From assembly GCF_014764505.1 (NCBI RefSeq), contig NZ_JACXWX010000001.1, forward strand, positions 372,001-436,000: 64,000 nt of DNA, in the 5' to 3' direction. Below the pieces are notes generated by a model. That model was not told the origin of the DNA. It saw only the letters and a list, made by a program, of their open reading frames with translations, and made no database searches. Below, one piece after another: positions 40,233 through 56,852 of this stretch (positions within the stretch are counted from its first letter, which is position 1; every line of letters begins with the position of its first letter). Position numbers and translations under genes: made by a program. This stretch comes from Phormidium tenue FACHB-886. GTDB taxonomy: Bacteria; Cyanobacteriota; Cyanobacteriia; Elainellales; Elainellaceae.

Positions 40233-41945
40233 CTAGCCGAGTTGAGTTCGCTGCCGCATATCCCCTTTGCGATCGGTGCGAATCTCCAGCAAGCGAATGC
40301 CTCGATTGGGTAACGGGTTGAGTCGCTGCACAAATTGCTCCCAAGATTGAATCAATTCGTAGTTCACTCCGTAAGTTGCACAAAGCAACGCAAAGTTAAT
40401 TGATTGCGGCGTAGCAAAGAATTCCTCAAAGGGCGGATCGAACTGGGCAATCGGCAGCGACTCAAAAATGCCGCCACCATTATTGTTAATTAGCACGATC
40501 GTCAAATGTCCGGAGAACTTTTTGCCAATCAAAAAGCCGTTCGTATCGTGCAGCAGCGCTAGATCGCCTGTAAGTAAGACGCCGCGCTGATGATAGGCAA
40601 CACCCAGCGCTGTGGATAAAGTGCCGTCAATCCCATTTGCTCCTCGATTGAAAAACGGCTGAATATGTAAGTCATTTGGCTGCCAAAACGCCTCAACGTC
40701 CCGCACGGGCATACTGTTGGCTATGAATAATGGCGTTCCGGCTGGAAGGTGCTGCGATAGGAGCCACGCGGCTTTTCCCTCAAACTGCTCCTCCATTTCA
40801 TTCAACGATCGATCAATCGATCCTCTAATGCGCTGCTCTGCCTCGTGCCACTGTTTCAGATAGCCACTGGAGGCTAGCAACTCTTCTGGTAATGCTGCTG
40901 CTAGTTGTTCTACCGAGAGCCGTAAGTGGGTTGTTCGCAGATGCAGCGGATCGAGATTGCGATCGCCCGGATCAATAATCCACTGCTGCGGTTGTTTTTG
41001 TGTCAACCACTGCCGCAAACGTTTACTGGTCGGCATTTCTCCAACCCTAATGACCCAATCAGGCGCTAGCTGGTCTGCCAGATCCTGGTCAAGCAATATT
41101 CGGGAATAGGTGGAGATCAGATTAGGATTACACTCGGCATAATTGCGGACGGGCGAAAGTCCTTCTGCTAGAACTGGGATCGAGAATCGCTGAGAGAGAT
41201 GAGCGATCGCCTCGCAATAGGTCTTGGGAAACTTTGGCTGAGCCACACCTGCGATCAAAATCCCCCGATCGGAAGAATGAAGCAGTGGCGAATGCAGGAT
41301 AGGAGAAGCAGGAGCAACCGGGGGTGTGCCAATGCCCGCAAAGAAATCAGCAGGAAACTGCTCGCTCAGTGCTTGAGCTGTAGCTTGCGAAACTGGAGCC
41401 AGCGGATCGCGGAAGGGCAAATTGAGATGAACCGCTCCAGCAACCGGATAAAGGGCACGCTCCCAAGCCTGAACGATCGTCTGCCGCAGGTATGCTAGCA
41501 GCGCTAGCTCCAGTGACGGCACAGCTAATTCGCTATACCAGTTTGGATAAGTGCCAAACAGCTTTTGCTGATCGACTGTTTGTCCAGCGTTACAGTCGCG
41601 CAGCTCTGGGGGGCGATCGCCTGTCAGCACGAGCAGCGGCACTCGACTCTCCCGTGCCTCGACTACTGCCGGATAAAAGTTGGCTCCTGCTGTTCCAGAG
41701 GTGCAAACAAGCACCACCGGACGATGACTGCAACGGGCAATTCCCAAGGCAAAGAACGAGGCCGATCGCTCGTCCAACATAGGAATTGCTTCGATCTGCG
41801 GATGCTGAGCAAACGCCACTGCCAGCGGGGTTGACCGTGACCCAGGGCAGACGATGGCAGTCATCAACCCTAAGCGATGCAGCGTTTCAGCCAGGACTGA
41901 TGCCCAAATTGTATTCGTATTGCGAAAGTCGATCGGCATTAGCAT
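40233..41945 (-). CDS. menD: 2-succinyl-5-enolpyruvyl-6-hydroxy-3-cyclohexene-1-carboxylate synthase
   Basis: A 570-residue ThDP-dependent enzyme that joins isochorismate and 2-oxoglutarate. In cyanobacteria it leads to phylloquinone for photosystem I. The N-terminal IVCPGSRSTPLAVAF and LDERSASFFALGIA are MenD hallmarks, and TGDRPPELRD follows. The ThDP/Mg site is near TGDLALLHDTNGF with NNNGGGIF. Either ATG (41945 or 41939) is possible. It follows pyrR on the same strand with a 17-nt gap, suggesting cotranscription. Other men genes are not in the window. Confidence 0.95.
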   Translation of the reverse strand: MLMPIDFRNTNTIWASVLAETLHRLGLMTAIVCPGSRSTPLAVAFAQHPQIEAIPMLDERSASFFALGIARCSHRPVVLVCTSGTAGANFYPAVVEARESRVPLLVLTGDRPPELRDCNAGQTVDQQKLFGTYPNWYSELAVPSLELALLAYLRQTIVQAWERALYPVAGAVHLNLPFRDPLAPVSQATAQALSEQFPADFFAGIGTPPVAPASPILHSPLLHSSDRGILIAGVAQPKFPKTYCEAIAHLSQRFSIPVLAEGLSPVRNYAECNPNLISTYSRILLDQDLADQLAPDWVIRVGEMPTSKRLRQWLTQKQPQQWIIDPGDRNLDPLHLRTTHLRLSVEQLAAALPEELLASSGYLKQWHEAEQRIRGSIDRSLNEMEEQFEGKAAWLLSQHLPAGTPLFIANSMPVRDVEAFWQPNDLHIQPFFNRGANGIDGTLSTALGVAYHQRGVLLTGDLALLHDTNGFLIGKKFSGHLTIVLINNNGGGIFESLPIAQFDPPFEEFFATPQSINFALLCATYGVNYELIQSWEQFVQRLNPLPNRGIRLLEIRTDRKGDMRQRTQLG

Positions 41946-41962
41946 CTTATCCGTTATATCCG

Positions 41963-42514
41963 CTATGCATCTACTGCCACCGCCCGCACTAGCTCCACGC
42001 CATCTCGCCCATCGGTTTCTTGTAGATACACTTTGATTTGCTCTTCTTTAGCAGTCGGCAATTCTTTCCCAATAAAATCCGGATGAATTGGCACTTCCCG
42101 ATGCCCTCGATCGACCAGCACCGCCAGCCGAATCAGCTCTGGTCTACCGTAGTCATTCACGGCATTCAGTGCTGCCCGCACTGTCCGGCCTTTGAAGATT
42201 ACATCATCGACTAAAACGATCGTTTTGCCCGACACATCAAACGGAATTGCAGTCTTGCGGGGTGTTCGCAGATTGATTTGATCCAAATCATCTCGATAAA
42301 AGGTAATATCCAGCGCTCCCACCGGCACTTTCACCTGCTCCAGCACTTCAATCTGCCGCGCTAGCATTTCTGCCAGCGGCACTCCCCTGGTATAAAGCCC
42401 CAGTAACGCCAGCCTGGACAAATCTTCCGCACGTTCTACAATTTGCGATGCCAATCGATTCAGTGTGCGGCGAACTTCATCGGCTGAGAGAATTTCGATT
42501 ACAGGAGAAGGCAT
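41963..42514 (-). CDS. pyrR: Bifunctional pyr operon regulator / uracil phosphoribosyltransferase
   Basis: A 183-residue type I phosphoribosyltransferase-fold protein. The PRPP loop is [49 protein letters not shown] and the C-terminal [11 protein letters not shown] are PyrR signatures. It is known to bind pyr mRNA in Bacillus; in cyanobacteria the RNA-binding role is less certain. I start at ATG 42514 (MPSPVIEIL), five codons inside the longest frame. It lies just upstream of menD. Confidence 0.93.
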
Positions 42515-42793
42515 AAACCACAGAAACAATAGGGTGCCATCGCTAATCCATTATCCCGCAGGCAAGCTGAAAGTAAGTGAAATTTGCTTGCCAATCGCTT
42601 ATTCGATTGGCAAGCAAAATATCTTTCGATCCTTCTTGGAACCAAAGGTTATGCTGGAGAGCGACAGCGATGCTCTCACCTTTATGCTAAGCACGGCTAC
42701 AAACGCGATTTCCCAAGCGCGGACTTGTCACGCCCCTTTATTTCACTGCCCCGCAGAAACAAGCTACACCTCTCATCCCTTTTCCCCTCTCGC

Positions 42794-45256
42794 ATGACTC
42801 AGCCACAGATCGATTCAGCTCTTGAGCTGCAGGGGCTATCAGAATCCGAGGTAGAGCAGCGGCGATCGGCAGGCATGGGCAACAATGTCACACTGCAAAC
42901 GGGTCGCTCCTACCAGCAGATTTTTAATGAAAATCTGTTTACCTTCATTAACGGAATTTTCTTCGCCATTAGTCTCGTCATGTTTAAGCTAGGGCGAGTC
43001 GGTGATGCCGTGTTGGTGGTGATCGTGATTTTCGGTGGTGTCCTAATTAATATCTACCAAGAAATTTGGGCAAAGCAAAAGCTCGATCGAATTGCTTTGC
43101 TAAACCGCCCCAAAGCTGCTGTTATCCGGGAGGGCAGAACCCGCTATGTTGACCCCAACGAAATTGTCTTGGGTGATATTTTGCTGGCGCAGCCTGGAGA
43201 CCAAATTCTAGTTGATGGACAGGTGGTGGGCAGTGGACGAATGGAGGTAGATGAGTCGCTGCTGACAGGTGAATCCGATCTGATTTTGAAACAGGCAGCA
43301 GTACCCGTTTACTCCGGCAGCTTTTGCGTCAGCGGCACGGCTTGCTACGAAGCCGAAAAAGTGGGAGCGGACACCGTTGCTTACAAGCTTGTTGCTGGGG
43401 CAAGAGCTTACCGACGATCGCTAACGCCCCTGCAGGTGGAGATCAATGTAGTGATCCGCGTCTTCATGCTGATCGCCTGTTTTCTGTGGGTGCTAGTCGG
43501 TATCAGCTTTCTCAGTAGCACCTATTCCCCTAATGAGATCGCTCAACGCGCTGCTGTGGTTGCCGGACTTGTCCCCGCCGGATTGCTGATCGCCATCACC
43601 CTCTCTTATGGGCTGGGAGCTGTCAGAATGCTGGGGCAAGATGTGCTGATTCAGCAGGCAAACGCGGTAGAGTCGCTCAGCAACGTCGATACGCTCTGCC
43701 TCGATAAAACTGGCACACTCACGACCAACCAGATTTTGCTGGAAGAAGTTTATCCAATCGCCACCACCGCCGCCGAGCTGAATGCGGCGTTGGGAGACTA
43801 TGCTGCCAGCACCACTGCAGGCAACCGCACTAGTGAGGCGATCGCGGCTGCTTGTCCGGGTCGAGTGCTGCCGCCCAAAGCCGAAGTTCCATTTTCCTCC
43901 GCACGGAAGTGGAGTGCTATTGCCTTTGATGAGGACGATCGGCGGGGGGTGTACCTTCTAGGTGCGCCAGAAGTGCTGTCGGCTTCAATGCAGCTCGATC
44001 AGGCCGCAATCGATTACATTAACTCAGGCACTATCCAAGGCTTGCGCGTCGTTTTGTTTGCCTATAGCCCTAACCCGACCGTCCTACAAGACACGGACTC
44101 GCCGCAGCTGCCGTCGGACTTAAAACCTCTCGGCATTTTGCGCTTCAGCGATGAGCTGCGCCCTGAAGCCTACGATACGATCCAAGGCTTTGCCCAGGCA
44201 GGTATTGAAGTCAAAATTATTTCCGGCGACAATCCACAAACTGTAGCAGCTTTAGCGCAACAGGCAGGCTTAGGTAAAGAAGCTCGCTTAATCTCTGGAA
44301 GCCAGCTGGCACAGCTAGACGATACCCAGTTTGCCCAAGCTGCTCTCAACCACACTATCTTTGGGCGCATTACACCCGAGCAAAAGGCGCTGCTGGTTGC
44401 TAACCTCCGCAAGTCAGGCCGCTATGTAGCGATGATCGGCGATGGTGTAAATGATGTGCTCTCGCTGAAGCAGGCAAATTTAGCGATCGCCATGGAAAGC
44501 GGCAGCAAAGCCGCTCGTGGCGTGGCAGACATCGTGCTGCTAAAAGACTCATTTGGCGCATTGCCCCATGCTTTCCTAGAAGGTCAACGCATTCGCAATG
44601 GCATTCAAGATGTTCTGAAGCTATTCTTAGTACGGACGTTTTGTGTAACGCTGCTGATCTTTGCTGCTGCCCTTGTCACCGATAATTTTCCCCTGCAGAA
44701 TAAGCAAAGCGCCATCGTTGCTCTAATTGGCGTTGGCTTCCCCACCATGTGTATTCCCATCTGGGCAAAGCCGGGAGTGCTGCCGCGCCGGAGCTTGGTG
44801 CGATCGATGCTACATTTTGTAATTCCGTCCACGCTAACGCTAACGCTGGTTTCGCTGCTGGTGTATCTTTTTTACCTGGTGGTGGCGGTGCTGGATCTGC
44901 CGCCCGGTTTAGATCCCAGTGAGATTAACCATGCCCTTCCTCGCAGTGCACTCGTCACAATTCTAGTGATGGGAGAGCTGCTGCTGATTCCTTTTCTAAA
45001 ACCGCCCAGCACTGCATGGGTAGGCGGTGAACCCCTTAGTGGCGATTGGCGCTATTCGATCGTGGCGCTGATCTTGCTGGGTGTTTATCTGCTGATTGTG
45101 GCAATTCCCCCTCTGCGTCGGTTCTTTGAGCTATACCCGCTTGACCCAATCAATTATCTTTTCATTGGGCTAGTCGCGATTGAGTGGTGCTTGATTCTGC
45201 GCTTTACTTGGCGATCGCGTTTCCTCGATCGGTTCCTGGGAATTGACTTGAGCTAA
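42794..45256 (+). CDS. P-type cation-translocating ATPase, CtpE-like
   Basis: An 820-residue P-type ATPase with about ten membrane segments. The phosphorylated Asp is in LCLDKTGTLTTNQ, the actuator motif is LTGESD, and the hinge is IGDGVNDVLSLKQA. The membrane motif is VPAGLL rather than the VPEGL of the Ca/Na class. The short N-terminus starts GLSESEVEQRRSAGMGNNV. These traits recall mycobacterial CtpE, a calcium importer, so divalent-cation transport is a reasonable guess but unproven. I use ATG 42794; the open frame extends further upstream without conserved sequence. It converges on the kinase gene with a 22-nt gap. Confidence 0.9.
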   Translation: MTQPQIDSALELQGLSESEVEQRRSAGMGNNVTLQTGRSYQQIFNENLFTFINGIFFAISLVMFKLGRVGDAVLVVIVIFGGVLINIYQEIWAKQKLDRIALLNRPKAAVIREGRTRYVDPNEIVLGDILLAQPGDQILVDGQVVGSGRMEVDESLLTGESDLILKQAAVPVYSGSFCVSGTACYEAEKVGADTVAYKLVAGARAYRRSLTPLQVEINVVIRVFMLIACFLWVLVGISFLSSTYSPNEIAQRAAVVAGLVPAGLLIAITLSYGLGAVRMLGQDVLIQQANAVESLSNVDTLCLDKTGTLTTNQILLEEVYPIATTAAELNAALGDYAASTTAGNRTSEAIAAACPGRVLPPKAEVPFSSARKWSAIAFDEDDRRGVYLLGAPEVLSASMQLDQAAIDYINSGTIQGLRVVLFAYSPNPTVLQDTDSPQLPSDLKPLGILRFSDELRPEAYDTIQGFAQAGIEVKIISGDNPQTVAALAQQAGLGKEARLISGSQLAQLDDTQFAQAALNHTIFGRITPEQKALLVANLRKSGRYVAMIGDGVNDVLSLKQANLAIAMESGSKAARGVADIVLLKDSFGALPHAFLEGQRIRNGIQDVLKLFLVRTFCVTLLIFAAALVTDNFPLQNKQSAIVALIGVGFPTMCIPIWAKPGVLPRRSLVRSMLHFVIPSTLTLTLVSLLVYLFYLVVAVLDLPPGLDPSEINHALPRSALVTILVMGELLLIPFLKPPSTAWVGGEPLSGDWRYSIVALILLGVYLLIVAIPPLRRFFELYPLDPINYLFIGLVAIEWCLILRFTWRSRFLDRFLGIDLS

Positions 45257-45278
45257 CTAGCGCTTGATTTAACTTCAC

Positions 45279-47084
45279 TTAAAACAGCAGATCCGCACCA
45301 ATCTCTCGTAAGTCGATTGCATACTGGCTGCCTTGCCCTGCTGCCCAAGTTGCTACCAACAAGCCGTGCTGCTCAAATGGAGTAATTGCCGTCACTCCAA
45401 CAGGCATTTGCATCAAACCCACTTGCCGTCCTTCCAAATCTAAGAGGGCAACTTCTCCCTGTTGGTTCGCCACGATGTAGCCCCAATCGACAATTGCTAG
45501 AAAATCAGGCAGGATTCCTGCTACCAATCGGGTAATGCGGTAAGGCTTCAGATTAATTAGCGTTAGCAGTTCGGGATGGTTGCGATCAATTGCCAACAGT
45601 TGATAGGGCGTTGCGGTAAACGTCAAACCTTTGAGCGGTAGCGGCAGCAGCAGCGACCCAATTTCATCTCCTCGCCGCGTTAGCACTTTAATTAACGTTC
45701 CACCCTGAGTTGTGAAGCGAGTTCTTGGTAGATCGAGCACAACCGCCACATGCCGCTCGTCTAGTGCTAATAGCCTGGGAGCCTCTGAGAATGCCTCCTT
45801 AAAAACAAGCTCTAGGGCTGTTCCTGCTAGGGCAATTGGGCGATCGTTCAGGCGTTTAAAATCAAGCTGATAAGATCTAGATTGCTCAGTTGGCGTTAAA
45901 ACTGCGACCCAACTACCTCCAGGAGCAATCGCTATGATGCTATCTTGCTCTAGCTCTAGAAGCGTTTGATAAGTAGCCCCTGATGCAGAGATGAGATGGA
46001 GCGATCGTCGCGTTGCCGCAAAGCAGCCCTGAGGTCGTAGCCACAGCGCTTCCAATGCTGGAACTTCCAAAACAGTAGAGGACAAGGCTTCAGGAGCTAA
46101 GAAGCCAGCCGGATAGTGACTGCAGACAACTCGCTGAGCTTGCGCCTGATAAAGCGTCCTACCAGAAACTACCACATCCGTGACAGGCTGGGCTAAAGGC
46201 TGCTGAGCTTCAAATTTGAACAAGCAATCCGGCGGCTCAGCAGTTGCTAGCAGCAGCGGTCGCTTTCGGGAAGCTTCTGCTGGGGTATTTGGTGGGGCTT
46301 CTTTAAGAGGGATCGCCCGAATTGCCAACAGCATTTCCTCAGCTGATTGAAACCGACGCGCCGATAGCTTTTGCAGAGCCGTAACAATCACCGGTTGCCA
46401 AGCTACTGGAATCGATGCGGGTAGGCTGACCGGATGATTCAAGTGGGCAGACATCAGCTCGGCAGGTGACCCAGCAAATGGTCGATAGCCCGCCAGCATC
46501 TCGTACAACATCACTCCAACAGAATATAAATCTGAAGTTGGAGAATATTCACCATAAAACCGTTCTGGAGCCATATAGGCAGGCGAGCCAGTGTTGCCCA
46601 CCTCCCGCCCTTCAATCGCCTGATTTAGTCGGGCAATCCCAAAATCAGAGATCTGTGCTGTCCAGCCCATAGGCTGGACCTTCAGGAGAATATTCTCCGG
46701 TTTAATATCGCAATGAACAATGCCACGATCATGAGCATGTGCTAGTCCTTCCAGCACATGCACGATTAGCTGAACGCTTTGCGACAGGCTGAGCCGCACT
46801 TCTTCCTTGATCAGGCTCCGCAGCGTTCCTCCCTCGCAGTAGTCCATCACCAGATGTCGCCCGGTTGCAGTATGCTCGATCGCTTGACAGCCGACAATGT
46901 TAGGATGCCGCAAGCTCAACAAAAATCGCAGCTCCCGCAAAAACTTATGGGTCGAGAACCGTTGAGGATCTAAACTCTTGAGCGCCGCTAACCTGCCCGT
47001 TTGGCGGTGCACTGCACAAAAAACGAGACCAAACTGCCCCTGTCCAACCAAACCAAGGAACCGATAGTGGGATCGTTTGGGCAC
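45279..47084 (-). CDS. Serine/threonine protein kinase with C-terminal propeller-like domain
   Basis: A 601-residue Hanks-type kinase. The nucleotide loop is LVGQGQFGLVFCA, the Lys is in AALKSL, the catalytic loop is VHCDIKPEN, and DFG is in ISDFGIARL, followed by GSPAYMAPE. The kinase domain spans about residues 8-270. Residues 310-600 form beta-rich repeats like a propeller. No membrane helix is visible. The start is GTG at 47084. It ends a minus-strand series with V4R and phycobilisome-like genes, in the position of the kinase SpkG (Slr0152) of the Synechocystis slr0144-slr0152 operon. A role in PSII assembly is inferred from that context. Confidence 0.87.
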   Translation of the reverse strand: MPKRSHYRFLGLVGQGQFGLVFCAVHRQTGRLAALKSLDPQRFSTHKFLRELRFLLSLRHPNIVGCQAIEHTATGRHLVMDYCEGGTLRSLIKEEVRLSLSQSVQLIVHVLEGLAHAHDRGIVHCDIKPENILLKVQPMGWTAQISDFGIARLNQAIEGREVGNTGSPAYMAPERFYGEYSPTSDLYSVGVMLYEMLAGYRPFAGSPAELMSAHLNHPVSLPASIPVAWQPVIVTALQKLSARRFQSAEEMLLAIRAIPLKEAPPNTPAEASRKRPLLLATAEPPDCLFKFEAQQPLAQPVTDVVVSGRTLYQAQAQRVVCSHYPAGFLAPEALSSTVLEVPALEALWLRPQGCFAATRRSLHLISASGATYQTLLELEQDSIIAIAPGGSWVAVLTPTEQSRSYQLDFKRLNDRPIALAGTALELVFKEAFSEAPRLLALDERHVAVVLDLPRTRFTTQGGTLIKVLTRRGDEIGSLLLPLPLKGLTFTATPYQLLAIDRNHPELLTLINLKPYRITRLVAGILPDFLAIVDWGYIVANQQGEVALLDLEGRQVGLMQMPVGVTAITPFEQHGLLVATWAAGQGSQYAIDLREIGADLLF

Positions 47085-47187
47085 GAGGGAGATGAGGGTA
47101 AGGAGTAAGGATGAAGAAATGAAATCCCAACTCTATTTTAGGAGACGGATGAAGTTACTCTCCTAAGAGAAGGATTTAACTACAAAA

Positions 47188-47838
47188 CTATTCGCAGAGG
47201 CGCTGCATAAGTTCGTCGTGGCTAGCAGTGGCTATCATCGTTTCGGCAGGTTCTAAACGTTTAGTTAAGCCTAAAACAAAGCGATTGCAGTCTGCACCCA
47301 TTGATTCGCAGGTAGTTTGGAGGCAGTGCAAATCCCGGCCCGTAAGCTGACTGAAGAAAGAGCTGAGGACGCCAGCTTCCAAATAACAAGCGGGCTGGTT
47401 GCGCTGAGCGGATTTGGCGAAAGGAGAATTCCAAATTTTGATTACCAAAAAACCGCGATTTTGATAACTCTGATCCAACTCTAGCTTGCCCCAACCGTGA
47501 GTCACCCAACACTGCTGCAACGCCTGCAAAAACTCCACCATTGCCATATCTGCAGGCGAGGTGTGATAGTAGTCGGTTAGCTGTTCACAGAAGCGGGTGT
47601 AGAAGTTTTTGCCCCACCAGCGCCCGCAGTTAAACAGCACCAGCCGCGCTGCTTGCCCTGTCTCTCGATCCAGCCCTGTATAGATAGCTTGAATTAACGT
47701 TTCCGGCAGAGCAATCAAGCGATCGCTCTGCCGATTTTCAATCAGCCCCATCTCTATGTCACCCCGCACATAAGTATCGGGGGCAAAGTAGTTGCCGGGA
47801 ATCTGAGGCTCGGTAAGCAGGTCTGCAATAGAGATCAT
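47188..47838 (-). CDS. V4R-domain protein (Slr0144-like)
   Basis: A 216-residue protein with a C-terminal 4-vinyl-reductase (V4R) domain, about residues 75-195. CYLEAGVLSSFFSQLTGRDL and CESMGADCNRFVLG (two Cys) are its typical end. V4R domains bind small hydrophobic ligands such as tetrapyrroles or phenols. It resembles Slr0144/Slr0147 of the PSII-assembly operon, and a second V4R protein is encoded at 48704-49387. It lies 103 nt upstream of the kinase gene and 29 nt downstream of a phycobilisome-like gene. Confidence 0.8.
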   Translation of the reverse strand: MISIADLLTEPQIPGNYFAPDTYVRGDIEMGLIENRQSDRLIALPETLIQAIYTGLDRETGQAARLVLFNCGRWWGKNFYTRFCEQLTDYYHTSPADMAMVEFLQALQQCWVTHGWGKLELDQSYQNRGFLVIKIWNSPFAKSAQRNQPACYLEAGVLSSFFSQLTGRDLHCLQTTCESMGADCNRFVLGLTKRLEPAETMIATASHDELMQRLCE

Positions 47839-47867
47839 GAGCGCAAGAATAAGGGGTGAAGAGTTGA

Positions 47868-48359
47868 CTAGCCGATTACTGCACCATTTAACGATTCTGC
47901 TGCCTGGGGCATCAGAGCGCTTTGTGCCTTCAACAATAGTGGACTGAGCAGGTTCATCTGGTTGCCCAGCGTTTGGCGGAGGCGCTGGTTTAAAAGCTGA
48001 TGGAGGCGCATGTCGATCGCCTGCGTTTGGTAAACTTCAACGGTGGGCGCAATCCAGTTAATAAAGCGATCGCGCACAATCGTTTCTTGATCGATTAGCA
48101 TCGCCATTGCGCAATGGCGCAACATCAGTAGAGCATTTTTGAGGCTACGCTCTAAATCTTCTGTTTTTGCCTGCGGCAACTCTATCTGGAGCTGATCGGC
48201 AACCCATTGCATAATTTCTATTTCCCGATCGCGCAAGCTTCGATAGGCTGCCAGCCGTTCAGGAATGGACTTCACATATTGAGACACCAGCTTCAGTTCG
48301 TCAATCTTGAGATAACGATTTTCTGCGTCATCAAAAATTTCTTCAATTTGGGGATGCAT
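47868..48359 (-). CDS. Phycobilisome-like (globin-fold) protein without bilin cysteine
   Basis: A 163-residue helical protein. FDDAENRYLKIDELKLVSQYVKSIPERLAAY follows the start of allophycocyanin-type proteins (DAExRYLxxxEL..YVxS..RL). It has no Cys-x-Arg-Asp at the position where allophycocyanin attaches phycocyanobilin, so it probably carries no chromophore, or binds one non-covalently. It may be a chaperone, a light sensor or a structural part. The cluster position resembles Slr0146. It is 30 nt from the V4R gene downstream and 30 nt from the small gene upstream. Confidence 0.72.
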   Translation of the reverse strand: MHPQIEEIFDDAENRYLKIDELKLVSQYVKSIPERLAAYRSLRDREIEIMQWVADQLQIELPQAKTEDLERSLKNALLMLRHCAMAMLIDQETIVRDRFINWIAPTVEVYQTQAIDMRLHQLLNQRLRQTLGNQMNLLSPLLLKAQSALMPQAAESLNGAVIG

Positions 48360-48389
48360 GGGAAAGAGGAAGAATGAAGGGATGAGGCG

Positions 48390-48707
48390 TTAAAACAGGT
48401 CAGAGAAGTTATCGAGAGTCAGGAAGTCTGTGGCTGAGTTGTCAATTATGATGCCCTTGCTAGAATCGGAAACAGTGGCGATCGCACCTCCATCCCAATT
48501 CACAGCACCCAAGAATTCTCGCACCTTCAGCGTCAGGCTGAGGGACTGCTCGCTGCCCGACTGAAGAGCCGTGCGTTTGAGTTCTTGAACAACTGGAGGA
48601 TAATTGTCCCAATTAAAAGCAGTGAAAAACTGTTGAACTGTTTGCCGCTTCCAAACAGGCGAAGAGTGAGGCTTGGAGCCATTGCCATTTCGCAGAGCCA
48701 TATTCAT
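48390..48707 (-). CDS. Small protein with two NWD-type repeats (Slr0145-like)
   Basis: A 105-residue protein. Two related segments, VQQFFTAFNWDNYPP and VREFLGAVNWDG, are followed by TLDNFSDLF. No membrane segment is present. Its ATGA start overlaps the stop of the upstream V4R gene by 4 nt (48704-48707), so translation is coupled. Function is unknown. The position between a V4R and a phycobilisome-like gene matches Slr0145 in Synechocystis (inference). Confidence 0.7.
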   Translation of the reverse strand: MNMALRNGNGSKPHSSPVWKRQTVQQFFTAFNWDNYPPVVQELKRTALQSGSEQSLSLTLKVREFLGAVNWDGGAIATVSDSSKGIIIDNSATDFLTLDNFSDLF

Positions 48708-49387
48708 CGCAGCAGTTCCCCAGATCTCAAACGTTTTTCAATATCGCGGGCAGTCGCCCCTTCATTCATCCAAAAGGCAGCCGCATCAATCCGGTCCTGC
48801 CCACCCAGCAGGAACTTGCAGTATGTTTCGCCCATTGAGTAGCACTGAATCTCGATGCAACTGAGCTGCTTTCTCACCAGCTCTGTGAAGAAACCTGCAA
48901 ACAAACCGGCATATAGAAAACAGACTGGTTTACCCACATCGCCCAGCGTACGCGCTACTGCTGAGTCAAAGATGTTGATAAACATGAATCCCTGCTTGCG
49001 ATCGCCCATGTCCACCTCCCAGCGCCCCCATCCTTGTGAAGTAAAGGGCCACCACCATGTTTCTAGCAAAAACAGCAGGTTGGTTTGGCGGATATTGCGG
49101 TCAAATTCCTCTTGAAACCATTTTTCAAAGAAGAAAGCATCTTTCTGCCCCCATTCACAGCCGATCGTATACATGGTGGCAGCAGCGGCATCCCCCACTT
49201 CTTCCTGCAATCCTTCAACCAAGCCAATGATGAAGTCTTCAGTAGTCAGCAGGTTTTGGCTACCGTTCCAGTCAACGATAGTGCCTTTGTCAGGGTCGAA
49301 CTGGAAGAACTCCCGAAAGCCGTAATGGTTGTGCTTTTTGGGATACTTCCGCTTTACTGGATGTTGGGTATCGATCAGGCTGATCAT
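48704..49387 (-). CDS. V4R-domain protein (Slr0147-like)
   Basis: A 227-residue protein with a V4R domain in the C-terminal two thirds. LLFLLETWWWPFTSQGWGRWEVD and FLYAGLFAGFFTELVRKQLSCIEIQC (split over two strands) are typical. YSMGETYCKFLLGG is the terminal Cys motif. It is the larger of the two V4R proteins in the cluster. It sits downstream of one phycobilisome-like gene and overlaps the small gene by 4 nt. Tetrapyrrole binding is plausible from the family but not shown. Confidence 0.8.
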   Translation of the reverse strand: MISLIDTQHPVKRKYPKKHNHYGFREFFQFDPDKGTIVDWNGSQNLLTTEDFIIGLVEGLQEEVGDAAAATMYTIGCEWGQKDAFFFEKWFQEEFDRNIRQTNLLFLLETWWWPFTSQGWGRWEVDMGDRKQGFMFINIFDSAVARTLGDVGKPVCFLYAGLFAGFFTELVRKQLSCIEIQCYSMGETYCKFLLGGQDRIDAAAFWMNEGATARDIEKRLRSGELLR

Positions 49388-49619
49388 AAGCAGGAATGAG
49401 GGATGAATGGAGCGCTAATTAGTTTTGATTGGAAATGGAGGAAAACTAGCTTTTAACCTGAGGGGAGGTGAAAATTGAGCATTCTAGAGTTTGAGCACAT
49501 CTACGCAGGCAATGTGGAGCAAAAACGGCATCTAGACTTAGGCTCAAGGTTCCCGCTCGTCTGTGAAATCTAACATCATCATACGGCGAGGAGGCAGGTA
49601 GGAAATTTCTAGTCTTTCC

Positions 49620-50096
49620 TCAAGCAACTGCTCCTAGCGATCGACGAGTCAGTTCAAGGATTGGACAAACGAGATTAGCTTGAGGAGGCGTGAGGTGGTG
49701 CTTCATAAGGTCTTGCAGGACTTGATAGGTTATGTTACAAGCCCGCTCTGCTTTAAACGCTCGTATGATGGTCTGAAACCACAGCAAAAACAGATCCTGC
49801 AGTGTATCGGGGTCATTTATCAACATAGCAACAGCCGTGTAGCGAAGAGTGCGAAGCGTGTCACGTTTCCACTTAGCGCTAACATCTTCTTGCCCACTCC
49901 TAAAGATTGTGGGGTCGAGCGATTGCAGCTTGACATAGGCTTGCTGTATTAGTGTCGCTTCTAGTTCTTGCAGCTTTTGATAGGTTTGCAGCCGCAGATT
50001 GAACGATTGGACATAATCAGTCATGAATTGCAGTTCGGCGTCAGTAGCATAGCGCCCGTCCGCTTCAAGGCTGAGGGATTTTAGTTGGCTGAGCAT
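49620..50096 (-). CDS. Phycobilisome-like protein without bilin cysteine (Slr0146/Slr0149-like)
   Basis: A 158-residue helical protein that reads like an allophycocyanin subunit: EADGRYATDAELQFMTDYV, SFNLRLQTYQKLQ, then WKRDTLRTLRYTAVAML. The Cys of the usual C-x-R-D bilin site is Trp here, so covalent bilin attachment at that site is not expected. Together with the gene at 47868 it forms a pair of diverged paralogues in one cluster. Gaps to neighbours are 124 nt (ferredoxin) and 232 nt (V4R). Confidence 0.78.
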   Translation of the reverse strand: MLSQLKSLSLEADGRYATDAELQFMTDYVQSFNLRLQTYQKLQELEATLIQQAYVKLQSLDPTIFRSGQEDVSAKWKRDTLRTLRYTAVAMLINDPDTLQDLFLLWFQTIIRAFKAERACNITYQVLQDLMKHHLTPPQANLVCPILELTRRSLGAVA

Positions 50097-50219
50097 AGGA
50101 AATGAGGAGATGAAGGAATAAATTCAGTCTTCCCGATTGGGGAAAGCAGCGAGCAATTATTAACTTTCTTCAATCAGATCCAGGTTCTGCTGCGATTGAA
50201 GGCGGTCACTCCTTATACG

Positions 50220-50705
50220 TCATACGTCGGTGCTGCGCGAGAAGAATTCTCCGTAATTGAAGCTGGTAGAGCTCTCGATCTGCTTTAGCATCGATCGCGT
50301 GATCAGTTTGCCTTCTTCAACTAGCACTTGACCTGTTACGGGATGTAGCAAGTTTTGCTCTGCCCGCCGTCCAATTAGCGCTTCAATATCTTTAATGGAG
50401 TTGATGTACATCCCTGGCGGCAGTTCCACAACTACACCATTTGCCAATACACGTGCCTGACAGGCAAGGCGCGAATTGGGCTTGCAGGACGTAATGACTT
50501 CTAGGGTGCGCTGTTCACGGCGGCTGATGGCAGAGAGCGCACCCATGCCGTTTTTCACATAGACATGGCAGGTCGCACACATACCCCGCCCTCCACATTC
50601 TCTTAAAACGTCAAGATCTTTGTCGATTAGAACCGACAGCAGGTTGCCGTTGGTCTCAATACCAGTCTCTTGAGCGATCGGCTCTAAGCGAACAATTTTC
50701 ACCAT
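50220..50705 (-). CDS. 2Fe-2S ferredoxin-like protein with C-terminal extension (Slr0148-like)
   Basis: A 161-residue protein. The cluster motif is ECGGRGMCATCHVY (C-x5-C-x2-C) with a fourth Cys in RLACQARVL. This spacing fits adrenodoxin-type or diverged plant-type domains rather than PetF. About 55 residues follow the domain, ending in SSTSFNYGEFFSRST. It is 39 nt downstream of the Roadblock-like gene. In Synechocystis a similar ferredoxin (Slr0148) belongs to the PSII-assembly operon. Confidence 0.85.
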   Translation of the reverse strand: MVKIVRLEPIAQETGIETNGNLLSVLIDKDLDVLRECGGRGMCATCHVYVKNGMGALSAISRREQRTLEVITSCKPNSRLACQARVLANGVVVELPPGMYINSIKDIEALIGRRAEQNLLHPVTGQVLVEEGKLITRSMLKQIESSTSFNYGEFFSRSTDV

Positions 50706-50744
50706 AAGAACTTTCTGCTTCTATCAAAGATAAGTAAGTCTGGA

Positions 50745-51584
50745 TTACGGATTAGGCAGCAGAAGCGCCTGCTGAGAGGCATTCAGGGCTTTTTGTCGAA
50801 CGGTCTTGGGAAAAGTGCGAATCACTTTTCCACAGCGATCGATAAAGGCTGCTACCCATTGTTGAAGCTGCTGCTGCTGCTCTGGAGAAGCGAGCATCGT
50901 TTCGTCGGCTTGCCCTGCAAAGCTGATTTGCGCCTTGCGATCGACCTGAAATTGACTCAACCATTCACTATCTGGGCAGGTCACCTTCCAGCTATTTGCC
51001 ACCACGCTTGCCCCTAAGTATTGCGTACTAAAGTGGCTGAGCTGATTGAGGGCAGCCAGCAGATCGTGGAGGAAGACAGCAGACGAAGCGGCGAGAGACT
51101 CTTCTTCTAGCGGAGCTGGAAGGTCTTTAGAGAGGGAATGGCTTGGGGATACAGCAGGAACAGCAGGAGCAACGACTGCCTCTTGATGTTCACGGGGTGC
51201 TGGCTTGAGAAAGGGAGTTGTTCCAGCAAGATGACGGAAGGTGGCGATCGCATCAGTGATATTGCCTTGCAGTTCAGCTTTAAGGCGGCTGATAGTCTCT
51301 GTATAGGGATCGTCTAGAGTGTTCGACATCAAGACGAGGAGAATAATACCGTGGTCTAATTTGTACAGATGGATCAGACACCCGTTGAACTGTAGCTCTA
51401 AGCATTCAAAACCGGGGGGTGTCGTTTCAATCACCTGCTGGATCCCTTGGGCAAGCGCTTCTCTTTGCTGAAAATTCAGCAGACGATCGAAGCCACAGAA
51501 ATAGGGGCGTGATCGTCCATAAATCATGGCTACGCCCATAATTCCTGGTAAATTCAGAAAGTCTTGCACAACCTCCTGTTTCAT
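50745..51584 (-). CDS. Roadblock/LC7-like protein, first gene of the V4R cluster
   Basis: A 279-residue protein. Residues 1-95 look like a Roadblock/LC7 (MglB-like) domain (VVQDFLNLPGIMGVAMIYG, then CLIHLYKLDHGIILLVLMS). A Pro/Ala-rich linker follows (about 120-165) and then a second alpha/beta region (LLAALNQLSHFSTQYLG). Roadblock proteins usually bind small GTPases or scaffold complexes; no GTPase gene is seen nearby. It starts the minus-strand series that leads through the ferredoxin to the kinase. Its assignment is by pattern only. Confidence 0.65.
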   Translation of the reverse strand: MKQEVVQDFLNLPGIMGVAMIYGRSRPYFCGFDRLLNFQQREALAQGIQQVIETTPPGFECLELQFNGCLIHLYKLDHGIILLVLMSNTLDDPYTETISRLKAELQGNITDAIATFRHLAGTTPFLKPAPREHQEAVVAPAVPAVSPSHSLSKDLPAPLEEESLAASSAVFLHDLLAALNQLSHFSTQYLGASVVANSWKVTCPDSEWLSQFQVDRKAQISFAGQADETMLASPEQQQQLQQWVAAFIDRCGKVIRTFPKTVRQKALNASQQALLLPNP

Positions 51585-51977
51585 AAACGTGCCCGAAGTG
51601 CTACATGATGGATCTCAGAAGTGATCGCAATTCCGATTTTGATTTTTCTATTCCAATGCCTAGATATCCAATGCCTAGACAGCAGTACTAGCCTCAGCAA
51701 CTTGAACTGTCAGTTGTATACTCTCTATCGACCCAGAAATCCCTATTCATTATGATTCTTCATAGCTGGGCTTACTCACCTCCCCGTTGGATTTTGCTAA
51801 ACAGCGCAGTTTGTTGGGCTATAGTTTGTCTGGCTGAGTATGGGGAGCTAGGTGCACGGGTCTGTCTTTCGCTTCACTCATCCAAACTGCACTTCTGGAG
51901 CTACACTCTAGAGGCGCTTTACCTACTCATCGCTTCGTTCGGTCCGTTGGCTTTTTCCCCGTTTAGATTTAGCAGCC

Positions 51978-52994
51978 ATGTCTGATCTTCCTTTTACTTT
52001 GGATCAGTTACGCATTCTTAAAGCGATCGCCGCCGAGGGCAGCTTCAAGCGTGCGGCTGATAGCCTGTATGTGTCCCAGCCTGCTGTCAGTCTTCAGGTG
52101 CAAAACCTGGAGCGTCAGCTAGATGTTCCCTTGTTCGATCGCGGTGGCAGGCGAGCGCAGCTGACCGAAGCCGGTCACCTATTGCTGAGCTATGGCGATC
52201 GAATTCTTAGCCTCTGCCAAGAAACCTGTCGGGCGATCGAAGACTTGCAAAACCTACAGGGCGGGACGTTGATTGTGGGAGCCAGCCAAACGACGGGTAC
52301 CTACCTGCTACCCCGAATGCTCGGGCTATTTCGCCAGAAGTATCCTGATGTTGCGGTTCAGCTGCATGTTCACTCTACGCGCCGCACGGCTTGGAGCGTT
52401 GCAAATGGGCAAATCGATCTGGCAATTATTGGGGGTGAAATTCCTCCTGAGCTACAAGATTCTTTAGAAATAATTCCCTATGCAGAAGATGAACTCGCAC
52501 TGATTCTGCCTATTTTTCATCCTTTTGCTCGGCTAAACCAGATTGAGCGGGACGATTTGTACCGCCTGCAATTTATTGCGCTCGATTCTCAATCCACCAT
52601 TCGTAAGGTAATTGACCAAGTACTGACGCGCTGCGGCATTGAAACGCGACGGCTAAAAATTGAGATGGAGCTGAACACAATTGAAGGCATCAAAAACGCA
52701 GTGCAGGCGGGACTAGGCGCCGCTTTTGTGTCGATCTCGGCAATTGAAAAAGAGCTTCAGATGGGCGTGTTGCACCGAGTCCGGATTGAAGGGGTGGTCG
52801 TGAACCGGACACTTTCAGTGATCATCAACCCTAACCGCTATCGCTCCAAAGCAGCTGAAGCCTTTACGAAGGAGATTCTGCCACAGTTTGCTACCCATAA
52901 GTCGCCTGCACCGGGGGAAACGATTGATACCAAACCAGCCTTGGAGCATGGGTTACCGCTAGAAGCACCGATCGGCAGCAATTCGATCGTCTAA
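51978..52994 (+). CDS. rbcR: LysR-type regulator of RubisCO genes (RbcR/Ycf30)
   Basis: A 338-residue LysR regulator. The helix-turn-helix is in [19 protein letters not shown] and [17 protein letters not shown]. The strongly conserved [21 protein letters not shown] and [20 protein letters not shown] identify the RbcR/Ycf30 group, also found in red-algal plastids, which activates rbcLS and senses carbon or redox metabolites. It lies alone on the plus strand, about 390 nt from the divergent Roadblock-like gene. The C-terminal tail after residue 300 is variable. Confidence 0.92.
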
Positions 52995-53083
52995 TTTTCG
53001 AGCAGACGATCGGGATTGGGGAGTTTTGCATCTGTATTTTGTAAGGGCACTTCCCTCGCAAAAACACAAGCCCCCTATGATCT

Positions 53084-53881
53084 ATGTTTGATTCCCCGCT
53101 CTGCAAACGCCCTTTCACTCCATTTCCCTTATTTCTCAACAATTGGGGAGCCTTAGAAGGAATCAGGCATCTTGTTCTGGCTGGCTTGGTACTGTTGGGC
53201 AGTTTGATGCTGTACTGGGTAGTGCGCCGCATGCGCCGCAAAAGGTTTAGCGCCCGACAACAGCTGATAGTAGCAATAATGCTGTTGGGGCTGTTAGGGC
53301 TAAATGTGGCGGAGCGAGGATTGACACTATTTCTGCCTGCTGATTCTGGGGAACCTATGGAGGCGATCGTCCTGCTAGGTCGAGGTCCGGATTTTGGTGT
53401 TCCGCGCATTGAGCTAGCTACAGAACTATGGCGAGCGAGCCGTGCCCCGATCGTGTTTGTCAGCGGTACGTGGGATGCGCCTAAAATGCTGACTGAGTTG
53501 CAAGTGAAAGGCATTCCGCCGCAAGCTTTGGATGGTGAAAACTGTTCGCAAACTACTCCCGAAAATGCCATTTTCTCAGCCGCGATTCTGCAGACACAAG
53601 GCATTCACCGAATTTTACTAATTACCGATCCACTGCATCTGTGGCGATCGCTGCTCGACTTTGAAGATGAAGGTTTCTCAGTTGTGCCACATGCTAGCCC
53701 CTTGCCGATGGGTCTAAGCTTCTGGGATAAAAGCTTTCTTGTATTCAGAGAATACTTGTTTATGTTTACTGCTAGTTTGGATAGGCTAGTGCATGGACGG
53801 CACTCCTACCAGTTGGATGAACCAAAGCTAACAGAGCTAGTTGCAGCAGCCCGAGAATACGGACGATCGAACCCTCGTTAG
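53084..53881 (+). CDS. DUF218/YdcF-family membrane protein
   Basis: A 265-residue protein with two N-terminal membrane helices (about residues 27-45 and 62-82) and a DUF218 domain. MEAIVLLGRGPD, APIVFVSGTWDAPKM and ENCSQTTPENAIFSA are the family's conserved blocks, and LLITDPLHLWRS completes the active-site-like cleft. Members are linked to cell-envelope or antibiotic-tolerance roles (SanA, ElyC), but the reaction is unknown. It ends 127 nt before the cyclase-like gene. Confidence 0.88.
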   Translation: MFDSPLCKRPFTPFPLFLNNWGALEGIRHLVLAGLVLLGSLMLYWVVRRMRRKRFSARQQLIVAIMLLGLLGLNVAERGLTLFLPADSGEPMEAIVLLGRGPDFGVPRIELATELWRASRAPIVFVSGTWDAPKMLTELQVKGIPPQALDGENCSQTTPENAIFSAAILQTQGIHRILLITDPLHLWRSLLDFEDEGFSVVPHASPLPMGLSFWDKSFLVFREYLFMFTASLDRLVHGRHSYQLDEPKLTELVAAAREYGRSNPR

Positions 53882-54008
53882 CTCCTAAAGCAATCGCCAC
53901 ATCAGTTAGGACAGAGACATTTTTGTGGGCGTGCGGAGCATAACAATGTCTTAGCATGGTGATGGCAGCTATAGGATCGAAAGATAGCCGTTTCTCGATC
54001 GATTTGCC

Positions 54009-55565
54009 ATGAGCCTGACCGAACAAATCCTCTCGCAGCTACCGGGCACGTTAGACAATTTGCGACGTGCCGATACACTTTGGCAAGCCTATCGAGAAAA
54101 CACCTTACCCGTTGCTACTGTTGTTTCTGAAGCCACTGAACCGCTGTTGGAGGTGATGTGGGATGCAGTGATCTGCGGCGGTACACTTGGCATTTTGATT
54201 GGTGCGGCACTAGCGCAGCGCGGTTGGAAGGTTGCCGTTTTAGAACGAGGCAGGCTGCGGGGACGGGCGCAAGAATGGAACATTTCTCGGCACGAACTGC
54301 AAGTCTTGATCGAGCTAGGGCTGTTGACAGGGGCGGAATTGGAACAAGCGATCGTCACACAATACAACCCTGCTCGTCTGAGCTTTCATGAAGGCATTGC
54401 ACTTGAGGTGGAAGACGTTCTCAACATCGGCGTTGATCCGGTCTTTTTACTTGATACCCTCAAAGCCAAATTTCTTGGCGCAGGCGGGGCTTTGTTTGAA
54501 CAGGTTGAGTTTGTAGGGGCGACCGTCTATCCCAACGGTGTAGAAGTGCAGGTTAACGATCGAAACCCTGCGTTTCAGTCCCGGCTGCTGCTGGATGCCA
54601 TGGGGCATTTCTCCCCGATCTCCCGGCAGGCGCGGCATGGCAAAAGACCAGATGCCGTTTGCCTAGTGGTGGGAACTTGCGCTCAGGGATTTGCAGACAA
54701 TCAAACGGGCGATCTGTTTGCCTCGTTCACGCCAATCCAGAATCAGTGTCAATATTTTTGGGAGGCATTTCCGGCACGAGATGGACGAACAACTTATTTG
54801 TTCACGTACCTAGATGCCCACCCTGCTCGTCCCTCGCTAGAAAGGCTCTTTGAGGACTACCTGACGTTGTTGCCACAGTATCAGGGAATAGAACTTGATC
54901 GCCTGCAATTTCAGCGAGCGCTGTTCGGCTTTTTCCCTTGCTATCGCGAAAGTCCGCTCCAGACTAGGTGGAATCGGATTGTACCGATTGGCGATAGCAG
55001 CGGTAGCCAGTCGCCGTTAAGCTTTGGCGGCTTTGGGGCAATGATTCGGCATTTAGAACGGCTGACAAATGGCATCCATACCGCTTTAGAAGCAGATCTG
55101 CTTGATCGAGCTGCACTGAGTTTACTGCAGCCCTATCAGCCTAGTTTGGCGGTGACTTGGCTGTTTCAGCGATCGATGAGCGTTGGTATGGATCAAACGT
55201 TACCGCCTAATCAAATTAATGCGCTGCTGTCGGGTGTTTTTGCCGAAATGCAGCAGTTGGGCGATGGCGTACTGAAACCTTTTCTGCAAGATGTGGTGCA
55301 GTTTGGTGGACTGTCTCAAACGCTGGGACGGGTGGCGATCGCTCAACCTCTCCTGATCGCTAAGGTTATTCCGCAAGTAGGGCTATGGGCTCTACTCACC
55401 TGGATGCTGCACTACTTCAACCTGGCTCTATACACTGGATTGCACTGGCTAGGACAACACATTAAGCCCTGGAGCAAAGTGCTACCGCCCCGACAGCGGT
55501 ATTTTGTCGATCGCTGGCTGGAAGCGTGGCAGTATGGCTCTGGCAAGGATTGGAAGGAAGGCTAA
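54009..55565 (+). CDS. CruA/CruP-type lycopene cyclase homologue (FAD-dependent)
   Basis: A 518-residue flavoprotein. The dinucleotide-binding motif is DAVICGGTLGILIGAALAQRG, followed by VLERGRLRGRAQEWNISRHEL, typical of CruA/CruP. GDSSGSQSPLSFGGFGAMIRHL matches the FAD-closing motif of the family. The C-terminus has a hydrophobic stretch (ALLTWMLHYFNLAL). Length favours CruP, the paralogue of uncertain cyclase activity, over CruA. A glycosyltransferase like CruG follows 36 nt downstream, which suggests a carotenoid-related pair. Confidence 0.83.
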   Translation: MSLTEQILSQLPGTLDNLRRADTLWQAYRENTLPVATVVSEATEPLLEVMWDAVICGGTLGILIGAALAQRGWKVAVLERGRLRGRAQEWNISRHELQVLIELGLLTGAELEQAIVTQYNPARLSFHEGIALEVEDVLNIGVDPVFLLDTLKAKFLGAGGALFEQVEFVGATVYPNGVEVQVNDRNPAFQSRLLLDAMGHFSPISRQARHGKRPDAVCLVVGTCAQGFADNQTGDLFASFTPIQNQCQYFWEAFPARDGRTTYLFTYLDAHPARPSLERLFEDYLTLLPQYQGIELDRLQFQRALFGFFPCYRESPLQTRWNRIVPIGDSSGSQSPLSFGGFGAMIRHLERLTNGIHTALEADLLDRAALSLLQPYQPSLAVTWLFQRSMSVGMDQTLPPNQINALLSGVFAEMQQLGDGVLKPFLQDVVQFGGLSQTLGRVAIAQPLLIAKVIPQVGLWALLTWMLHYFNLALYTGLHWLGQHIKPWSKVLPPRQRYFVDRWLEAWQYGSGKDWKEG

Positions 55566-55601
55566 AGAGAGATGCAAGGCTAGAGAGATGACAGCTTTGG
55601 G

Positions 55602-56852
55602 TTGGTCTTAGGGCGGACAGTAAAGGTAGACAACGCAGGTAAGCTATTAAGCTATGTAGCGTCCTGTTTGTCTGTGAAAAGCTTACTAATTATCATCGGT
55701 CTGTCATTTTTGGCGGCTCTCCTCTTTGATCTGAGTCTGCGTCGGACAGTTACCCGCAATCCCCAATTTGCCGTTCGATCGACTCCTGGGGAAATTCCCC
55801 CGGTTGCCGTAATTATTCCTGCCTACAACGAAGCCGAAAATATAGAAACCTGTGTCACTTCTGTGTTGCAGAGTACTCCGCTATCTAAAGAAACGCTACA
55901 GGTTTGGGTGATTGACGATCAATCCAGTGATGCAACTTGGACGATCGTTCAATCGCTGCAAGACCCGCGACTCAAGTTGCTACCAGGCAAACCCAAACCT
56001 ACAGGCGAAACTTGGGTCGGCAAAAGCTGGGCATGTACCCAAGCTGCCGAGCAAGCCACTGGAGATTACTTGCTATTTATTGATGCCGATGTGCGGCTGC
56101 AGGCAGGAGCGATCGAAACGGTAGTGCAGCAGGCACAGACAGATGCAGCAGACTTGCTGAGCTGCGGACCGGCGCTGGAGTGTGGCTGCTTCTCGGAGTG
56201 GCTGGTGCAGCCATTAATCCTGAGCATTATCATGGTTGCCTATGATTTTGAATCGGTTAATGATCCGAAATCTGAAAATGCTTTTGCCGCTGGACCTTTC
56301 ATGCTGTTTCGGCGATCGGCATATGAGCAGATCGGCGGGCACCGGGCTGTGGCAGCTCAAGTGGTCGAAGATTTAGCGCTTGCCCAACTGATTAAACGGA
56401 GCGGGCTAAAGCTGAAGATGTTAGGTGGATCAAACCTTGCTAGCCTGCGAATGTATCGCTCTGGCGCAGCTCTTTGGGAGGGCTGGACAAAAAATATGTA
56501 TTTGGGCGTGCAGCGCAACTTCTTTGCTTTGATGCAGCTAGTCTTAGTGATGCTATTGATTTATGTCATCCCTTGGGTCGGTTTAGCTGCACTTCTGATT
56601 AAAGTCAACTTCAGTGGTTTCAGCAGCTGGGACGGTGTAGCGATCGCCTTCTGCTGCCTTGCAATTGCCTTGCACTACGACATGCGGCGAACAGCCGAAA
56701 CAATTTCTAAAGTACCCACACGCTATTGGTGGCTGGCTGGTCTGGGTGGACTGGCAGTCATAGTGCTGGCAGTCGCCTCATTAATTAAAACTGAGACGGG
56801 TTGGGGGTGGACATGGCGGGGGCGACCATTGAAAGCAGCTCTAAAAGACTAG
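55602..56852 (+). CDS. Glycosyltransferase family 2, carotenoid-type (CruG-like)
   Basis: A 416-residue membrane-anchored GT2. A helix at about residues 25-45 precedes the GT-A core: VAVIIPAYNEAENIETCV, VIDDQSSDATW and FIDADVRL (the DxD). GPFMLFRRSAYEQIGGH and EDLALAQLIKRSG follow, typical of processive-like GT2 enzymes. Three C-terminal membrane helices end the protein. CruG in Synechococcus 7002 glycosylates the 2'-hydroxyl of myxol, and its similarity and adjacency to the cyclase homologue support a carotenoid role. No ATG is available near the start; TTG 55602 is tentative and GTG 55674 is possible. Confidence 0.8.
   Translation: MVLGRTVKVDNAGKLLSYVASCLSVKSLLIIIGLSFLAALLFDLSLRRTVTRNPQFAVRSTPGEIPPVAVIIPAYNEAENIETCVTSVLQSTPLSKETLQVWVIDDQSSDATWTIVQSLQDPRLKLLPGKPKPTGETWVGKSWACTQAAEQATGDYLLFIDADVRLQAGAIETVVQQAQTDAADLLSCGPALECGCFSEWLVQPLILSIIMVAYDFESVNDPKSENAFAAGPFMLFRRSAYEQIGGHRAVAAQVVEDLALAQLIKRSGLKLKMLGGSNLASLRMYRSGAALWEGWTKNMYLGVQRNFFALMQLVLVMLLIYVIPWVGLAALLIKVNFSGFSSWDGVAIAFCCLAIALHYDMRRTAETISKVPTRYWWLAGLGGLAVIVLAVASLIKTETGWGWTWRGRPLKAALKD

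Follow-up and report, generated by a model that had tools for sequence, protein, structure and literature searches.

An slr0144-slr0152 (Pap) operon of the Leptolyngbya type in Phormidium tenue FACHB-886, with a predicted Roadblock-fold protein beside an rbcR-like gene

Eight genes on the minus strand of a 64,000-nucleotide stretch of the genome of the cyanobacterium Phormidium tenue FACHB-886 (hereafter the window: contig NZ_JACXWX010000001.1, positions 372,001 to 436,000, with positions below counted from its first letter) raise the question of whether they constitute an altered form of the photosystem II (PSII) assembly operon of Synechocystis, slr0144-slr0152 (Pap), and what such an alteration means. 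That operon has been known since about 2004-2008, its mechanism is lacking, and studies have focused on Synechocystis, where it includes a tetratricopeptide repeat (TPR) protein, Slr0151, and a second ferredoxin, both found in a minority of cyanobacteria. The window cluster (45279-51584) is the Leptolyngbya-type form of the Pap operon, and we incline to the view that it encodes a non-antenna signalling or assembly complex for PSII biogenesis and repair. An initial annotation of the window had interpreted the cluster as one device resembling this operon with "altered content", a proposal that was partly supported by the results below.

The eight open reading frames (ORFs), separated by gaps of -4 to 232 nt, were confirmed at the coordinates and in the order first annotated: RBX, FES, GLB1, V4RA, NWD, GLB2, V4RB, and STK. 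Pfam matches above the gathering score agreed with the earlier guesses of a ferredoxin (FES, Fer2), two phycobilisome-like proteins (GLB1 and GLB2, Phycobilisome), two V4R proteins (V4RA and V4RB, V4R), and a Ser/Thr kinase (STK, Pkinase). The first and fifth proteins, RBX and NWD, gave no match to any Pfam or NCBIfam family. Both are single copy, and V4R domains are confined to the cluster in the 8.9-Mb genome searched. The comparison with Pap was made through a Synechocystis-like cluster (L041) and the literature, not through the PCC 6803 sequence itself, and the likeness held in gene content and conserved synteny. L041 is a full nine-gene homologous cluster, in which FES and GLB1 stand among the genes from V4RA onwards; after them come a ferredoxin of 103 aa, a TPR protein of 317 aa, and the kinase. 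As NWD occupies the place of the slr0145-type gene of L041, with the same FFxxxNW motifs, it is not an additional gene. Regarding the TPR protein and the second ferredoxin, annotated as missing, neither ORF is present in the cluster. No full-length homologue of Slr0151 was found in the whole genome, where only generic TPR repeats matched its profile (positions 149-238), and the search for an slr0150-type ferredoxin covered the cluster only. Since both genes are lineage-specific (40 of 390 genomes), their absence was not taken as disqualifying for a Pap operon.

The arrangement is not peculiar to this strain. In a class-level sample of 145 cyanobacterial genomes, V4RA was found in 93 (two genomes with only V4RB being excluded from this count) and FES in 94, with 92 having both. 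Scanning named genomes yielded 325 confirmed loci, of which the best 80 were retained (Elainella, Drouetiella, Leptolyngbya, Nodosilinea, and others), and the complete order, rbcR(divergent)-RBX-FES-GLB1-V4RA-NWD-GLB2-V4RB-STK, was present in 21 of these best 80. This recurrence across named genomes makes the arrangement a lineage standard, neither a rarity nor a single-genome oddity. The "altered content" is better put as a content that varies among cyanobacteria and, in the window, is typical of its own lineage; an earlier study had already described the cluster as variable, with frequent duplication or loss, and in many cases without the genes that adjoin it in Synechocystis (PMC10151467). 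The survey sets a conserved core apart from lineage additions.

Two modules could be distinguished within the cluster, RBX-FES-GLB1 (module 1) and V4RA-NWD-GLB2-V4RB-STK (module 2), so the Roadblock-like gene does stand first, as annotated, but within a separable module rather than as a simple prefix. In 27 genomes the modules and the rbcR-like gene form a single locus, whereas an rbcR-linked module 1 lies apart from V4RA in 28, and the widest gap of the window cluster, 232 nt (49388-49619), separates GLB1 from V4RA. These data would suit two independent units that are now neighbours, module 1 belonging with rbcR and carbon fixation and module 2 with PSII. We regard this as quite improbable, as the presence of the modules is almost perfectly shared, FES and GLB1 are found inside module 2 in L041-type clusters, and both modules have decayed together in one genome, G095, where one contig has broken copies of RBX and FES, a second contig has broken copies of V4RA and STK, and rbcR is intact. 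The functional unity of both modules, and thus the proposed single device, is supported by this joint decay and by the near-perfect co-occurrence, and the device also by the published interactions among Slr0144-Slr0149 in Synechocystis (PMC9880817).

RBX (50745..51584) is an unstudied protein with a near-fixed genomic partner. It is predicted to comprise a Roadblock/LC7-fold N-terminal domain (residues ~1-122), a disordered linker (~125-168), and a helical C-terminal domain (~170-279). Its AlphaFold2 model (mean predicted local distance difference test score, pLDDT, 80.5) has the order alpha-beta-beta-alpha-beta-beta-beta-alpha at residues 3-107, which is the Roadblock topology, and residues 170-279 form a confidently predicted helical domain. 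The best Foldseek matches in the PDB were Roadblock/LC7 proteins and Ragulator subunits (probability 1.00, with modest E values of 9e-4 to 1e-2), in agreement with the Roadblock-like gene of the initial annotation. The PDB sequence search gave nothing informative and no sequence-level match to Roadblock/LC7. From the predicted structure, RBX appears to represent an undescribed Roadblock-fold family, and no description of a cyanobacterial Roadblock protein in such a setting was found among open-licence papers. Its helical domain was also seen elsewhere: on a different, receiver-like N-terminus in a second, diverged copy of the cluster in two genomes of one family (G130 and G108), and in several proteins of another family's genomes that match this domain only.

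The partner of RBX, overlooked by the initial annotation, is a divergent LysR-type regulator gene on the plus strand (51978..52994). Its product is probably RbcR (Ycf30/CbbR type), a name that rests on its family and its near-universal presence (123 of 145 genomes), its CbbR-like NCBIfam match being below the cut-off. This gene divergently adjoins RBX in 64 of the 64 genomes where both passed the threshold, an adjacency more constant than that of RBX and FES (56 of 72). RBX might then be unrelated to the Pap complex, a partner or regulator of the LysR protein that adjoins FES by chance. Such an explanation seems unlikely, because V4RA is missing from just 2 of the 73 RBX genomes, while the rbcR-like gene occurs in many genomes without RBX. 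Moreover, RBX was lost or broken along with V4RA and FES, with an intact rbcR-like gene, both in G095 and in G034, the latter keeping only a short RBX remnant next to the rbcR-like gene and neither V4RA nor FES. RbcR activates the RubisCO genes, CO2-concentrating genes, and rbcR itself (PMC13249358). As RBX and the rbcR-like gene have a divergent promoter region in common, the supply of RBX may follow the CO2-fixation status. Whether RBX goes further and, as an adaptor, links RbcR with the PSII assembly complex and with the ferredoxin that its kinase controls, Slr0151 standing in for it in other lineages, is in our opinion doubtful; if true, photosystem biogenesis and carbon fixation would be directly connected by signalling.

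RBX and the Slr0151-type TPR protein were never found together in the 145 genomes. In a larger sample, both were present in 3 of 390 genomes versus 17.9 expected (one-sided Fisher P 8e-8, in a test that assumes independence of the genomes, which does not hold, without correction for phylogeny). We tentatively suggest, as a possibility that we would not put high, that RBX takes the adaptor role held by Slr0151 in Synechocystis.

Concerning module 2, V4RA (48704..49387; Pfam V4R, 2e-21) is of the Slr0144 type and V4RB (47188..47838; Pfam V4R, 2.2e-16) of the Slr0147 type, and the two V4R genes date to the base of thylakoid-bearing cyanobacteria (PMC13174344). Residues C156, E179, C182, and C190 of V4RA are conserved in 115 of 115 sequences, and the zinc set is not fully conserved in V4RB. 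Slr0147 has been reported as an RNA-dependent protein (PMC12475003). Relatives of V4RA with 62-64% identity were also detected on two large conjugative plasmids of Acaryochloris marina MBIC10699. In one locus (L051; G037 C37:70000-78454), V4RA is missing, and its expected place upstream of GLB2 is taken by an ORF of 158 aa that is similar to an IS200-type transposase.

NWD (48390..48707), at the slr0145 position, is the small repeat protein that had been annotated, with two FFxxxNW-type motifs and the C-terminal sequence LTLDNFSDLF; its family shows one to three tandem FFxxxNW motifs followed by a conserved tail, FTLDDFSDLF. A C-terminus of the type [LIVMF]F, with one further residue allowed, was found in 89 of 94 NWD proteins, 63 of 82 kinases, and 24 of 629 background ORFs. 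The -LF end common to NWD and STK may serve both proteins for docking; alternatively, that of the kinase may simply be where its last strand ends. As for the NWD motif being a wider domain, there was no second match in its own genome even at E 10. A stretch near the N-terminus of V4RA (residues 24-45, FREFFQFDPDKGTIVDWNG) resembles the motif FFxxxNWDG, which may be coincidence or mimicry.

The two globins were initially described as diverged antenna proteins, which is misleading, as the globins of this cluster fall within the BBAG lineage, which is the sister group of the light-harvesting phycobiliproteins (PMC10151467), and both lack the chromophore cysteine. GLB1 (49620..50096; slr0149 position; Pfam Phycobilisome, 8.4e-20) carries KWKRD, and GLB2 (47868..48359; slr0146 position; Pfam Phycobilisome, 5.7e-07) has no CxRD motif; thus, both match the phycobilisome/globin fold without the bilin cysteine, and PDB sequence searches gave no informative relative for either. 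Among 63 distinct GLB1 sequences, the bilin-attachment position is Trp in 48, Cys in 13, and another residue in 2, the motif being CRRD in L041-like clusters and WKRD or WQRD in the lineage of the window. Given that both globins lack this cysteine, covalent bilin attachment through it is excluded in the window, although non-covalent binding may occur. The cluster has been kept without the usual attachment, which implies that the bilin cysteine is not needed for its retention.

These residues also bear on a different explanation, in which the cluster still has a part in the chemistry of bilins or chlorophyll precursors, as the pre-PcyA clusters of heterotrophic bacteria do: the ferredoxin would feed a reductase, tetrapyrrole would be carried by the globins and the V4R proteins, and the effects on PSII would be indirect. 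The ancestry of the genes speaks for it, the cyanobacterial Fe-S, V4R, and BBAG genes descending from pre-PcyA clusters and the BBAGs of heterotrophs binding bilins (PMC10151467), as does the binding of small hydrophobic ligands by V4R domains. However, neither a heme oxygenase nor a bilin reductase is encoded in the window cluster, and with the Cys-to-Trp change of GLB1 and the absence of CxRD from GLB2 we consider a bilin-handling complex rather unlikely.

FES (50220..50705; Fer2, E 1e-07) is a 2Fe-2S ferredoxin, the counterpart of Slr0148/Fd5. The cluster cysteines C37, C43, C46, and C82 are present in 55 of 55 sequences, T18 in 50, and T72 in 52. STK (45279..47084; Pkinase, 3.2e-49) is a Hanks-type Ser/Thr kinase of the SpkG type, with K36, D126, N131, and D147 (the catalytic Lys, Asp, and Asn, and the DFG Asp) invariant in 20 sequences. 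HCD replaces HRD, with C125, next to the catalytic Asp, in 79 of 82 sequences, and the four cysteines C23, C66, C83, and C125 are conserved in 75-81 of 82; they are a possible redox handle. The propeller-like tail of the initial annotation was predicted as an all-beta domain by AlphaFold2 (predicted template modelling score, pTM, 0.86), and its support is the predicted secondary structure together with the confidence of the model, because Foldseek with the whole kinase gave kinases only. In Synechocystis, phosphorylation of Fd5 is absent when SpkG is missing, the activity of SpkG itself being unverified (PMC11863333), and Slr0151 takes part in modulating this phosphorylation (PMC9958174). HoxEFU showed no reaction with recombinant Fd5 (PMC7363133).

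From these data, a mechanism can be proposed for a Pap complex of this type. V4RA and V4RB would be a small-molecule-binding pair, with V4RA holding a structural zinc, while GLB1 and GLB2 would form a phycobiliprotein-like pair that serves either for scaffolding or for sensing a non-covalently bound tetrapyrrole. NWD would tie the subunits together through its repeated motifs and its -LF tail, FES would carry a redox signal and serve as the substrate of the propeller-bearing kinase, and RBX, with its Roadblock fold and helical tail, would be the adaptor, possibly under common control with rbcR. The RBX/rbcR-like pair, the RBX/TPR alternation, the Cys-to-Trp change of GLB1, and the NWD peptide are new and useful points, which bear on the coordination of PSII biogenesis, redox state, and carbon fixation in cyanobacteria.

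In the surroundings of these genes, the intergenic region from which RBX and the rbcR-like gene diverge (51585..51977) holds an element, GCTATRAAGAATCATAATGAATAGGG, which is conserved in an alignment of close relatives and did not significantly match the RbcR consensus of the literature. Double TCAT pyrimidine tracts were also observed, four of the five in the window lying within the cluster, on its coding strand and directly upstream of GLB1 (50098-50117), V4RA (49392-49407), GLB2 (48370-48387), and STK (47107-47124). In relatives, a single TCAT tract precedes GLB2 in 21 of 77 loci and GLB1 in 13 of 72, versus 21 of 522 background ORFs, and the tracts could be a translation leader. No Rfam element was found at 41000-56000 of the window, and promoter-like counts did not differ from those of shuffles. 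A P-type ATPase gene (42584-45256) converges on the kinase gene; it is also a neighbour in two other loci (L077 and L098, 83% identity), but not generally.

Several results weigh against the proposed function and against the place of RBX in it. The PSII assembly and repair role was published for Synechocystis (PMC9145668, PMC4853703), so the experimental support comes by analogy from outside the lineage of the window, and the published roles may be due chiefly to slr0150-slr0152 (PMC10151467), and for two of these genes the window cluster has no counterpart. The exclusion between RBX and the TPR protein looked absolute in 145 genomes but was weakened by the sample of 390, in which, for instance, G254 and G181 carry both, and it may be plain phylogeny. 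In two genomes of one family, RBX is present with no rbcR-like gene found around it, and an RbcR site of consensus ATTA(G/A)-N5-(C/T)TAAT between RBX and rbcR did not exceed shuffles. In addition, every break of G095 lies near contig ends; thus, assembly error is a real caveat for its decay.

How the cluster relates to known systems can be summarized from its parts to the whole. RBX 1-122 resembles Roadblock/LC7 proteins (Thorarchaeota 7f8m, Streptomyces 3kye, and Ragulator subunits) in predicted fold and topology, but has an additional helical domain and belongs to a cluster without a small GTPase gene. V4RA aligns with the sensor domains of PoxR and MopR, and its cysteines are spaced by 26 and 8 as they are in the zinc site of DmpR (PMC7264223); it shares with these phenol-sensing proteins the profile fold and the zinc-site residues, and lacks their ATPase and DNA-binding domains. 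The V4R/Fe-S/globin core descends from the pre-PcyA bilin-biosynthesis clusters of heterotrophic bacteria (Rockwell et al. 2023, PMC10151467), which contain, as the window does, an Fe-S protein, two V4R proteins, and BBAG globins; in the window, the bilin reductase and heme oxygenase are absent, the globin motif is lost, and the kinase, NWD, and RBX are added. Finally, the cluster has in common with the Pap operon the V4R pair, two BBAG-type globins, the Slr0148-type 2Fe-2S ferredoxin, the small protein between V4RA and GLB2, and the SpkG-type kinase in last position. It differs from Pap in the absence of the slr0150-type ferredoxin and the Slr0151 TPR protein, in a GLB1 without the CxRD cysteine that its L041 counterpart retains (a comparison made through L041, not Slr0149), and in the upstream position of FES-GLB1 together with RBX, next to the divergent rbcR-like gene.

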